Assembly (NCBI GenBank): GCA_021738385.1
Contig: JAIPCF010000021.1
Span: 1 to 35,443 of the forward strand
Direction of reading: 5' to 3'
Length of the DNA stretch: 35,443 nt
Origin: Sulfuritalea sp.
GTDB taxonomy: Bacteria; Pseudomonadota; Gammaproteobacteria; Burkholderiales; Rhodocyclaceae
Below, in pieces: positions 27,921 through 31,612 of this stretch (its first letter is position 1; each line of letters begins with the position of its first letter). A model generated the notes under the pieces. That model did no database searches. It saw only the letters and a program-made list of their open reading frames with translations, and had not been told where the DNA came from. The translations under genes were made by a program, and so were the position numbers.

Positions 27921-27923
27921 AAC

Positions 27924-27947
27924 GCCGTAGCGCCATCGCCGACTTTT
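27924..27947 (+). repeat. Dispersed 24-bp intergenic repeat, copy 5 (plus orientation), with perfect hairpin
   Basis: Matches at 23 of 24 positions and starts three bases after the maeB stop. Its 3' part plus flank (27938-27954) forms GCCGAC-TTTTG-GTCGGC, a perfect six-base stem. It lies between convergent genes, so this copy may work as a terminator, though no T run follows. Confidence 0.8.
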
Positions 27948-27983
27948 GGTCGGCGGCAGGCGGGCCGGAAGTTGCTGCGCGAC

Positions 27984-28799
27984 TCAGCCGGCCAGACGCC
28001 CGCGCAGCAGATGACTTAACCCGTCGACAATTAGCACCAGCACCAGCATGGCCGCCAGTACCGTTGCTGCCTGCGCCTGCTGAAAAATCGAAAGATGAAA
28101 GTAGAGCATCTGCCCCAGCCCGCCGGCACCGACGAAACCCAGCACGGCGGCCATGCGGATGTTCATTTCCAGGCGATACAAACTGTAGGCAATGAACTGC
28201 GGCCATACCAGGGGCAGCGTGCCGTAGAAGAAGGCTGCTGCACTGCCTGATCCGCTTTCGCGCAGACTGGTTTCGGCAAGCGGCGGCGCGTTCTCGATGG
28301 CTTCGGCAAACAACCGGCCCAGCACGCCCGTGGTGTGCAGTGCCAGCGCCAGCGTACCGGCGAAAGGCCCAAGCCCTGCAGCCAGCACCATCAACGTGGC
28401 CCAGACCAGTTCCGGCACGCTGCGCAGCAGGTTGAGCGCGAAGCGTGCCAACTGACGCGGCGCGGCACCCAGACGACCGGCAGCGGGCAGCGCCAGCAAT
28501 CCGCCGAGCAGCGCCGCCAGCAGTGTGCCGATGGCTGCCACGGCGAAGGTTTGCAGGGCGCCGTAGGCCGTCTTGTAAAGCAGGCCCGGCGAAATATCCG
28601 GCGGAAAGAAAGAGACAACGAAGTCACCCATGCCGGCGGCCGACTCGTGCGAGAACAGCGCACCGAATTCGATGTCGAGATAGGCAAAGCTGGCGCCGAT
28701 GGCCAGCAGCAGCGCGCCGCTGCTGAGCAGGCAGGTCAGGCAGAAATCGCCGGGGCCCTGCGGCGCGCAGTTTTCGCTCTGGCCATTCAGGGCGTTCAT
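27984..28799 (-). CDS. phnE: ABC transporter permease, PhnE family (second copy)
   Basis: A 271-residue inner-membrane permease with about six hydrophobic segments and the cytoplasmic coupling loop (EAIENAPPLAETSLRESGSG, then TLPLVWPQF) that contacts the ATPase. Its [17 protein letters not shown] is nearly the same as the matching stretch of the first permease, showing that the two are paralogues and probably form a heterodimer. Its ATG overlaps the upstream permease stop as ATGA. It is the last gene of the phnD-phnC-phnE-phnE operon. The substrate could be phosphonate, phosphite or, judging by the binding protein, selenate or another oxyanion. Confidence 0.88.
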   Translation of the reverse strand: MNALNGQSENCAPQGPGDFCLTCLLSSGALLLAIGASFAYLDIEFGALFSHESAAGMGDFVVSFFPPDISPGLLYKTAYGALQTFAVAAIGTLLAALLGGLLALPAAGRLGAAPRQLARFALNLLRSVPELVWATLMVLAAGLGPFAGTLALALHTTGVLGRLFAEAIENAPPLAETSLRESGSGSAAAFFYGTLPLVWPQFIAYSLYRLEMNIRMAAVLGFVGAGGLGQMLYFHLSIFQQAQAATVLAAMLVLVLIVDGLSHLLRGRLAG

Positions 28800-29647
28800 G
28801 CCAGCGCCTTGCGCAGGCCGGCGCTGATCGCATCGGCGAGCAGCACCAGCAACAGAAACACCAGCAGGATGGAACTGGCTTCACCGCCGTTGAGCATTTT
28901 CATCGACTGGTCCATCAGCTGGCCGAGACCGCCGGCGCCAACGAAGCCCATGATGACCGATGCACGCACCGCACATTCCCAGCGGTACACGGTATAGGAG
29001 GTCAGCTCCTGCGCGGCATTCGGCAGCAACCCGTAGGCAAGTGCGCCGAGCCGACCGCTGCCGCCGGCGAGCAACGCACGCGCCGGGCGCGTGTCGGTAG
29101 ATTCGAGAATTTCGGTATATACCTTGCCGAGCATGCCGCCATAGGTGATTGCCAGCGCCAGCACGCCGGCCGCCGGGCCGAGGCCGAGTACGCGGACGAA
29201 CATCAGCGCCCAGACAATTTCGGGTATCGCCCGCAAAACCGTCAGCAAGGCGCGGCAACTGGTGCGCAGTGCATGGCCGCGCCAGCGTCCAGGCCCGGGC
29301 CCGATGCTCGCTACCGACAGCGCCCGCGTGGCGATCACGGCCAGCGGCGCGGCGATCAGCAGCGCCAGCGTGATGCCGGCTGTGGCGATGGCCAGCGTTT
29401 CAAGCGTGGCCTTGAGCAGCAGGCCAAGAAACTCGGGCGAGCGCGCGGGCGGCAGAAAACCGGCGAGAAACCCGGTCATGACGTTCAGGTTGCCGGCTTC
29501 GAACAACACTGCCGGGTGGAATTCGGCCAGCTGCAGGAGGGGCCAGAGCACAACCAGAGCGAACAAGACCGCGCCCAGACGGCGCCGAGCATCCGGGTCG
29601 CGCAAGGTCGTTTCCATCGGCAAGGCAACGACTTGAGCGCCGCTCAT
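28796..29647 (-). CDS. phnE: ABC transporter permease, PhnE family (first copy)
   Basis: A 283-residue permease. A long N-terminal segment with the first membrane helix (about 25-45) is followed by the conserved transport domain with [17 protein letters not shown], the EAA-type loop [18 protein letters not shown], and [16 protein letters not shown]. It overlaps the ATPase gene before it and the second permease after it, both by ATGA, giving tight translational coupling. With its paralogue it forms the membrane pore of the importer. Confidence 0.88.
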
Positions 29648-30513
29648 CCGAGTCCCCGGCTGTTGTCGATTCGCAGCACCCGTGCCTCGCCGCCGTCACC
29701 AAACGCCTGCAGCGCGATGGGGTGGTTGCCTTGGGTTGGCACTACGCTGCCCTCGCTGGCATACAGCTCACTCAGCATCTCCCGACTGACTTGCGCCGCA
29801 GGCAGATCGAAAGCCAGTTCGCCGCCACGCAGGCCGATCACGCGGGGAAACCATTTCAGCGCCAGATCGACGGCATGCAAGGAGGCCAGCACCGTGGCGC
29901 CACGCTGCTCAGCTTCGGCGACGATCTGACCCACGGCGGCATCGGCCAGGGTCGGGTCGAGTGCCGACACCGGTTCGTCGGCGAGGATCAGCTCGGGCTG
30001 CTGGTACAACACGCGGGCGATGCCGACGCGCTGCAATTGGCCGCCGGAAAGCCGGTCGCAACGGTCGAACAGCCGGTCGGCCAGATCGAGGCGCGCCAGC
30101 GCCTGCTGCGCGCCGCTGATGTCGGCCGGATACAGCAAAGAGAGCAGGCCCTTCCAGGCCGGCCAGCGCCCGAGCCGCCCGGCGAGAACCGCGGTAATAA
30201 CCCGCAGCCGAGGCGGAATCGGCGGTGCCTGATGAATGGTGCCGATGCGAGTGCGCAGACGGCGCAGATCGCCCGCTGAAAGTTGCCACGGATTGGCGCC
30301 GAACAGTTCAAGGCGCCCGGCGGTCGGCCGCAGCGCACAACCGAGCAGGCGGATCAGGCTGGTTTTGCCTGCACCCGACGGACCGATCACGGCAACGCGT
30401 TCGCCAATCGACAGCTTCAGCTCGAGACCGTGCAGGGCGCGCAGGCCGTTGCCGTGCTCGAGACCGAGCTGGTGGGTGACCAAGGCCATGGGCTTGGCGA
30501 GCGGTGCCTGCAC
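29644..30513 (-). CDS. phnC: ABC transporter ATPase, PhnC family
   Basis: A 289-residue ATPase that powers the importer at the inner membrane face. It has Walker [10 protein letters not shown] at 44-52, Q-loop [11 protein letters not shown], signature LSGGQLQR, Walker B LILADEP and the switch histidine in SLHAVDL. The C-terminal 30 residues extend past the usual fold. The start is taken as GTG 30513, nine bases after the phnD stop; the alternative ATG at 30489 has no Shine-Dalgarno sequence and would shorten the first strand. It overlaps the first permease gene by ATGA. Confidence 0.9.
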
Positions 30514-30522
30514 TATTCCGGC

Positions 30523-31410
30523 TTACTTGATCAGGCCTGCACTGCGCGCCGCCGCTTCGATGCCGGCGTAATTCTCTGCCTGGGTTGCAATAAACTTCGA
30601 GGCACGCTGCAGGTCCATCAGCGCTTTGTGTTCCGGATTGGCCGGATCGAGTCTGAGGAAGGCATCGGTCAGCTTCTTTTTCAACGCGGAGTCGAGCCCG
30701 GGGCGCACGGTCCAGTTGTAGTCGTAGTAAGGCGGCGTGGTGGCGATCACTTTCACCCGTTTGGCATTGGCATCGCCCTTCATCACCAGCTTGTCCATCA
30801 CCGAGGCGTTGAGCACGCCGCCGTTCGCCCTGCCCGACGCGACGAAGGCCACGGTGGCGTCATGAGCGCCGGAAAAGGCAATATTCTTGAAATCCTTGTC
30901 CGGATCGATTCCGTCCTTGAGCAGAAAGTGCCGCGGCATCAGATGACCGGAAGTGGACGAAGGCGAACCGAAGGCGAAGTTGCCGCCTTTCAAATCTGCC
31001 ACGGTCTTGGCCGCGCTGCCAATCGGCACGATGAACTTGCTGGTGAATTTTTCATCCTCGGCGCGCTGCACGATGGGCGTCACGCCGCCGCCCGGCATGT
31101 CGTGAGTACGCAACTTGGCCTGAACAAAAGTAAATCCGCCGAGCCAGGCCAGATCAATTTTCTTTGAGGCAAGGCCTTCAACCACCGCCGCATAGTCGCT
31201 GACAGGAGTGAACTGAACCTTGAGACCGGTCTGCTTTTCCAGGTAATCGCCCAGCGGCTTGAACTTGCGCTGAAGCTCGGTCGGGGCTTCATCGGGAATG
31301 GCGGAGACGCGCAGGGTGTCAGCAAATACGGCGCTGGTGCCGAACACCAAGGCCAACCAAAGGGTGAGCGGCAGGGCGCGGCTGGCTATCAGGCGAAGCA
31401 AAGGAATCAT
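30523..31410 (-). CDS. phnD: PhnD-family periplasmic binding protein (phosphonate/phosphite or possibly selenate)
   Basis: A 295-residue binding protein. A signal peptide (about 1-30, ending AVFADTLRV) exports it to the periplasm. The mature protein has the PhnD-type start VSAIPDEAPTEL, GDYLEKQTGLKVQFTP, DYAAVVEGLASKKIDLAWLG and the ligand-loop SPSSTSGHLMPRHFL. The GGFTFVQA stretch and overall pattern remind me of the clade annotated as putative selenate ABC transporter binding proteins rather than true phosphonate binders. No C-P lyase, phosphonatase or ptxD gene is in the window to support phosphonate or phosphite use. AGGAG precedes ATG 31410. It is the first gene of the four-gene importer operon. 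Confidence 0.88.
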   Translation of the reverse strand: MIPLLRLIASRALPLTLWLALVFGTSAVFADTLRVSAIPDEAPTELQRKFKPLGDYLEKQTGLKVQFTPVSDYAAVVEGLASKKIDLAWLGGFTFVQAKLRTHDMPGGGVTPIVQRAEDEKFTSKFIVPIGSAAKTVADLKGGNFAFGSPSSTSGHLMPRHFLLKDGIDPDKDFKNIAFSGAHDATVAFVASGRANGGVLNASVMDKLVMKGDANAKRVKVIATTPPYYDYNWTVRPGLDSALKKKLTDAFLRLDPANPEHKALMDLQRASKFIATQAENYAGIEAAARSAGLIK

Positions 31411-31458
31411 TGTCGTCTCCTAAGGGTTGAGGCGGGTAGCAGACGCCGGCACGAGCCA

Positions 31459-31609
31459 GCATCAGGCATTAGCTTAGCAGCCTCGTCAAGCGGCCACGGA
31501 CTGCCGGCCCGGCGATGCTCGTACACATTCTGACGGCTGCTGCTACAGTATGGCGTCTGGTGAATAAATCGCACTCGCGGTTGTCGCCGCCAACCCTCTG
31601 AAAGGCTGA
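31459..31609 (+). pseudogene. Relic of a MaeB/phosphate-acetyltransferase C-terminus
   Basis: Read on the plus strand, this gap holds a broken copy of the last ~45 codons of a MaeB-type gene. Frame 1 gives VHILTAAATVWRLVN (31521-31565) against [15 protein letters not shown] in the intact maeB. After a one-base deletion the next frame gives ALAVVAANPLKG and TGA (31607-31609) against [15 protein letters not shown]. Further upstream, degraded GISLA, LVK and GPAML blocks match GPVLL-type sequence, with about 15 bases missing. By hand count, about 65 of 87 bases match over the last 87. Many differences are synonymous, so the relic descends from a diverged homologue, not a fresh copy. No start or upstream portion is present. 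Confidence 0.85.
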
Positions 31610-31612
31610 GCC

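Follow-up and report, generated by a model that had tools for sequence, protein, structure and literature searches.

A putative selenate importer operon between maeB and a maeB relic carrying a promoter-like motif before qor in Sulfuritalea sp.

Homology-facilitated illegitimate recombination is known from work on natural transformation; integrases insert into the 3' ends of genes and replace the gene's tail, as in icd; and promoters lying within the coding sequence of the gene upstream are common in bacteria. The locus described here, the junction between maeB and qor in a stretch of 35,443 nucleotides from Sulfuritalea sp. (assembly GCA_021738385.1, contig JAIPCF010000021.1), bears a likeness to each of these. 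Homology-facilitated illegitimate recombination is named in the reference list of PMC5312590. The whole stretch, referred to below as the window, is the entire contig G000:C21 of the source genome (G000), a draft of 162 contigs that is 82% complete with a contamination of 2.98. Among the matches listed in our literature searches, we found no paper on the maeB-qor junction.

Working along the forward strand, we see an intact maeB, four importer genes on the reverse strand and then, directly before qor, the final ~118 coding bases of a maeB with its stop codon and the bases GCC, a piece we refer to as the 'relic'. An earlier note on this DNA, made from the sequence alone, had placed the importer between maeB and such a relic, correctly so and with the relic rightly oriented in the same direction as maeB; its start for the relic, 31459, was too early, no maeB similarity being found before 31491. 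In other genomes of the genus the two genes meet either at a 'compact' junction (type I), where the maeB stop codon is followed by three bases and then the qor start, or at a junction held open by a spacer (type II). The explanation we favour, at a probability of roughly 0.64, is that a type II maeB tail, together with the importer, recombined into a genome of the compact type, the old tail being left behind as a promoter for qor. This reading rests mainly on a stretch of 36 bases after the intact maeB that resembles type II spacers, and on a promoter-like motif that separates the two junction types completely. The features of the locus are as follows.

25626-27920, forward strand: maeB, NADP-malic enzyme/phosphotransacetylase fusion, intact, 764 amino acids (Pfam malic, Malic_M and PTA_PTB; NCBIfam PRK12861, 1240.8 against a cut-off of 1178).
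27745-27920, forward strand, left edge approximate: 3' end of maeB, probably a type II allele replacing the old one (placement windows, identities, no TGnTACAGT).
27921-27956, forward strand: 3' flank of maeB, resembling the type II spacers of G001, G027 and G013.
27984-28799, reverse strand: PhnE-type permease (TIGR01097, 223.1 bits, above the cut-off of 216.7).
28796-29647, reverse strand: second PhnE-type permease (TIGR01097, 202.6 bits, under the cut-off of 216.7; Pfam BPD_transp_1).
29644-30513, reverse strand: PhnC-type ATPase (TIGR02315, 204.3 bits, under the cut-off of 266.1; Pfam ABC_tran).
30523-31410, reverse strand: periplasmic binding protein, putative selenate type (TIGR04553, 350.8 bits, cut-off 250; TIGR03431, PhnD, 171.3, under 261.1).
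31411-31490, reverse strand: leader of the binding-protein gene, without maeB similarity.
31491-31612, forward strand: the relic, left from the 3' end of the old type I maeB and running up to the qor start codon.
31541-31549, forward strand: TGCTACAGT, a motif resembling an extended -10 promoter, retained in the relic at 72 bases from the start of qor.
31600-31609, forward strand: GAAAGGCTGA, stop codon of the old maeB and, probably, the ribosome-binding site of qor (GAAAGGCTGA or GAAAGGCTAA precedes qor in 13 unbroken type I junctions).
31613-32587, forward strand: qor, NADPH:quinone reductase (PRK10754, 398.6 bits, cut-off 348).

Aligned to the end of the window's maeB, the relic scores 75 against a mean of 18.0 and a maximum of 30 for 300 dinucleotide shuffles, and so exceeds chance; 61 of 80 aligned bases are identical, with 65 of 80 for the best relatives, G014 and G011. 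To align, the relic needs a one-base gap within the tail and other small gaps farther upstream; it is therefore frameshifted, which bears out its earlier description as a frameshifted maeB C-terminus. It has also lost coding constraint: compared with G014 over 81 columns, 6 of its 15 changes hit the first or second base of a codon, against 1 of 13 in the window's intact maeB, 1 of 9 in G010 and 1 of 7 in G011. Being frameshifted and altered at all codon positions, the relic is non-coding. Upstream of 31491 maeB similarity ends, 31406-31490 scoring 13 against a median of 11 and a 95% point of 15 for 300 shuffles. The relic DNA matches maeB 3' ends in 12 other genomes of the genus, all of type I, and in no other genus; for nine of these 12 the E-value is better than that of the window's own maeB end, the identity being higher in two (G011, 80%; G010, 78%), equal in two (77%) and lower in eight. 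No relic was found before qor at the 11 type II loci or at two loci outside the genus (local scores of 13-20, against 104 for the window).

The relatives come from a search of 61 genomes with maeB, after which the fetched neighbourhoods gave 27 loci with both a maeB end and qor, 25 of them from the same genus. Of the 30 other genomes in the genus, six (G006, G008, G015, G020, G021 and G029) were left unscored, their maeB end or qor being absent or cut off; in G008, no qor match was found within 2.4 kb after maeB on its contig. The 25 genus junctions divide into 13 that are compact, one that is compact but split by a repeat (G014) and 11 with spacers, giving 14 loci of type I (four maeB genes partial) and 11 of type II (from 10 genomes; three maeB genes partial), with type II spacers of 134 to 1741 bases, counted from the end of the maeB match. 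Genes of maeB directly before qor without the importer, which the earlier note had proposed to look for, are thus present at 13 of the 25 loci. None of the 25 holds importer genes, and none holds two whole maeB genes, the maeB of G024 consisting of two adjoining pieces that make up one gene. In G014 (L054), the maeB tail is as in the compact loci and is followed by a 191-base spacer with a dispersed repeat; this repeat stretch has 12 matches in G014, itself included (seven of them short), and one in G000.

Extended -10 promoters follow the pattern TGnTANANT. The motif TGCTACAGT, which fits this pattern and may well act as a promoter, occurs exactly once, within the last codons, in all 14 type I maeB genes and in none of the 11 of type II. 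It lies 73 or 82 bases from the qor start at the 13 unbroken type I loci and 258 bases away in G014, where the repeat sits between the motif and the qor ribosome-binding site. The window's intact maeB has no TGnTANANT, and the relic carries TGCTACAGT 72 bases before qor. A test for codon constraint beyond that of the protein, as left by a promoter embedded in an upstream coding sequence, finds such constraint in type I maeB: of 229 testable fourfold third bases (columns with at least 11 of the 14 type I sequences present, so roughly the last two thirds of maeB), 58 are invariant, 33 as C, 22 as G and three as A or T, and the codons ending in these three are the three consecutive codons under TGCTACAGT—the mark of a DNA signal overlying codons. 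By eye, the -35 side of TGCTACAGT is poor. Type II qor genes are preceded by a promoter-like pair of their own, TTGAA[AT]-N17-TAG[CT][GT]T, present at 11 of 11 type II loci and at none of the 14 of type I. That the relic holds both the motif and the ribosome-binding site of qor is the likely reason for its survival, a point absent from the earlier note.

As to which of the two tails is native, G000 groups with G014 both in the tree of the main part of maeB (ultrafast bootstrap 100) and in that of qor (97). Placed on the maeB tree over 81 columns, the relic finds its best position of 47 with G014, at a weight of 0.47 (0.27 without the motif), and its mean identity is 0.760 to type I against 0.715 to type II. 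The intact tail is closest to a type II gene, that of G001 (73 of 81), with mean identities of 0.872 to the 11 type II genes and 0.814 to the 14 of type I (0.875 and 0.828 without the motif); placement beside G014 costs 6.1, 3.9 and 4.0 log-likelihood units for three column sets, the third of which puts it best at the base of a 13-member clade made up of the 11 type II genes and the compact G011 and G025. In a sliding placement along maeB, G014 is best in 11 of 14 placement windows up to column 2135, and the last two prefer type II branches by 4.9 and 4.4 log-likelihood units. The tree tests on the relic and the intact tail are weak.

The flank is a separate line of evidence. The 36 bases after the intact stop codon match the post-stop bases of G001, G027 and G013 in a position-constrained comparison with all 11 type II loci (0 of 1000 shuffles for each); the match to G022 is weak (16 of 1000) and the remaining seven spacers are unmatched. 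An unconstrained search with the stretch after the maeB stop was not decisive, its score of 35 lying between the mean (25) and the maximum (38) of 200 shuffles, and at the other end of the insert 31411-31500 compares with type II spacers no better than shuffles do (24 against a mean of 24.7). Since a compact ancestor had three bases after its stop codon, the 36-base flank most likely arrived with the new tail; descent from a three-base junction leaves its match to three type II loci unexplained, which favours recombination. The proposal in the earlier note that an ancestral maeB-qor pair was split and its old tail left behind has accordingly gained in support, from the motif split, the flank and the compact junctions taken together.

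The course of events under this recombination would have been as follows. The ancestor would have had a compact junction, with the qor promoter (TGCTACAGT) within the last codons of maeB. DNA of a relative of the spacer type, comprising the 3' end of a maeB, the flank beyond it and the four importer genes, would then have recombined in, anchored in the conserved maeB 3' end. The left crossover would lie in shared maeB sequence, at about 27745-27800, giving maeB a new tail without disrupting the gene. On the right, the join would fall within the old tail near 31490, some 50 bases short of the -10 motif on its upstream side. Had it fallen within or past the motif, qor would have lost its promoter, so the join that survived would be one that spared it. 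The ~118 coding bases of old tail and the stop codon that remained would have been released from coding constraint, keeping the promoter motif and ribosome-binding site, such that the relic would now serve qor as a promoter and leader in its own right, divergent from the adjoining leader of the importer. Of all this, the relic, the two types of junction, the clean division of both motifs between them and the spacer-like flank are observed, while the donor, the crossovers and the activity of the promoter are inferred.

Several observations weigh against this reading. The importer is present at none of the 11 resolved type II junctions, so no donor has been found; the source genome is an incomplete draft; and a consensus scan of 27600-32000 reported no sigma-70-type promoter. 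The relic's placement weights are only the 0.47 and 0.27 given above and, with the motif set aside, it is barely nearer to type I (0.736) than to type II (0.727). For two of the three column sets the intact tail goes best to G011, which has a compact junction and lies within a mainly type II clade; three of the 14 upstream placement windows also leave G014 (by 1.2, 7.7 and 0.3 log-likelihood units), and two window margins near 29 look like optimisation artefacts. The approximately unbiased (AU) test leaves vertical descent of the intact tail, its placement with G014, unrejected (p = 0.135, 0.323 and 0.183). The intact C-terminus, LKGLGG, retains the LKG seen in some type I genes, and relic and intact tail disagree at 36 columns, of which G014 shares 24 with the intact tail, nine with the relic (three of them in the motif) and three with neither; decay of the relic, which would give such an imbalance under any model, may explain this. 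The AU result, the shared LKG and the 24 of 36 columns would also suit a history in which insertion of the importer duplicated only the last ~118 bases, the intact tail being vertical and later losing its motif by drift as the downstream copy took over. We think this improbable given the 36-base post-stop match to three type II spacers, and given an intact tail that is nearer to type II than to type I even with the motif excluded.

The decay of a tandem paralogue, the alternative offered in the earlier note, would require a duplication of maeB, with one copy on either side of the importer, and erosion of the second until only the final 118 coding bases were left. The shared orientation of relic and maeB fits such a history, as do the presence of two further maeB copies elsewhere in the genome and the near-equal identity of the relic, without the motif, to the intact tail (54 of 69) and to G014 (55 of 69). 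No tandem pair is seen at the fetched genus loci, however, nor do any of the 25 genus junctions combine the importer with an intact second maeB; maeB similarity in the relic reaches only 118 coding bases from the gene end; the spacer-like flank, and the spacer-like codons of the intact tail, would be unexpected; and the two further copies, ~67% identical to the window's maeB and 94.6% to each other, belong to a different lineage. We therefore regard tandem decay as unlikely. A chimeric assembly, in which reads of two related strains were joined within maeB, is conceivable for a draft in 162 contigs with some contamination, maeB being conserved enough for a misjoin; a single misjoin in maeB would still leave the tail-importer-relic-qor stretch as real DNA of one strain, and the relic shows decay and lies directly against the leader of the importer, making this the least probable account. 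Insertion of the integrase type was rejected, there being no integrase in the insert, which the four transporter genes fill.

Returning to recombination of a type II tail and importer as the preferred reading, the junction may tentatively be seen as a 'cargo slot', the position of the qor promoter deciding how it can be used: with the promoter moved out of maeB, varied genes would be accepted, and with the promoter inside, only a tail-swapping exchange would be, its remnant becoming a free-standing promoter. The type II spacers hold a gene for a GGDEF-like protein in G022 and G030 and, going by names assigned by eye, what we take to be QueG-like proteins in G013 and G017 and alpha/beta hydrolase-like proteins in G001 and G027 (loci L041, L039, L046, L056, L043 and L045); with different genes in these spacers, the slot has been used repeatedly. 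Two assemblies, G030 (L039, L055) and G005 (L053, L057), each contain two copies of the window-type maeB, 88-94% identical to the window's at the protein level, which are either true duplicates or mixed strains. G011 (L061) and G025 (L040) have compact junctions and a maeB that falls, with low support, inside the mainly type II clade, and the qor of G011 groups with that of the type II G019 at 95, so the maeB-qor block may recombine often.

As a worked case, the locus indicates how the sites at which a genome takes up new genes could be influenced by a promoter that overlaps the coding sequence next door. A further suggestion is that a pseudogene-like fragment can serve as a working promoter, of a kind that annotation would miss, and the 14 compact and 11 spacer junctions make the idea directly testable.

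Around the locus, ParA-type ATPases at 24693-25580 and 32729-33358 flank the maeB-qor block, and the order parA1-maeB-qor-parA2 recurs across the genus where contigs extend far enough. The qor protein is 79% identical to one from an Aromatoleum buckelii genome, 75% to one from a Rhodocyclales metagenome-assembled genome and 69% to that of Candidatus Accumulibacter necessarius. The two further maeB copies of the source genome are on G000:C99 and G000:C133 (L065 and L066), the identities given above being those of their proteins. Elsewhere in the window, an S-adenosylhomocysteine (SAH) riboswitch (2247-2322, reverse strand) lies upstream of a gene for S-adenosylhomocysteine hydrolase (open reading frame listed as 771-2297), whose listed start overlaps the riboswitch, the true start probably being further in; and a bacterial alpha-2-macroglobulin (14533-20202) has nearby a penicillin-binding protein that carries a transglycosylase domain (10865-13063).

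The importer is most like the putative selenate importers of TIGR04553, whose family cut-off its binding protein exceeds while falling short of that for PhnD (TIGR03431); by sequence, the nearest solved structures are phosphonate- or phosphite-type binding proteins. Among the matches listed in other bacteria, nearly all Betaproteobacteria by title, 14 of 89 importer relatives have a SelB-like gene nearby, and 18 of the 89 a SelB-like gene or one of two formate dehydrogenase-like genes; 80 of these relatives are the best 80 listed matches, and one SelB and one formate dehydrogenase beta representative were named by NCBIfam, the large formate dehydrogenase subunit being recognised by eye only. 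On the side of difference, the G000 draft has selD and no selB over cut-off; across the 31 genus genomes selD is over cut-off in all and selB in 26. Selenate is a putative substrate. The permease is found (E up to 1e-40) in two of the 31, G000 and G029, and in G029 the operon adjoins cysM, not maeB.

Known kinds of event explain the locus; their combination is new. In the manner of homology-facilitated illegitimate recombination, a foreign block would be inserted by way of homology on one side, in the 3' end of maeB, and a join without homology on the other: a left switch within maeB is suggested by the placement windows (three of 14 earlier ones also shift), and to the left of 31491 there is no maeB similarity. 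It differs in that here we infer the event, along with its donor and the exact join. With integrase insertion at 3' ends it shares the order of parts, an intact gene whose 3' end is new being followed by an insert and the displaced old tail, and it differs in an insert of four transporter genes without an integrase. And as with other embedded promoters, the promoter-like motif of qor lies in maeB codons at all 14 type I loci; the difference is that here the coding sequence has been displaced, and a non-coding piece of ~120 bases has kept the motif.

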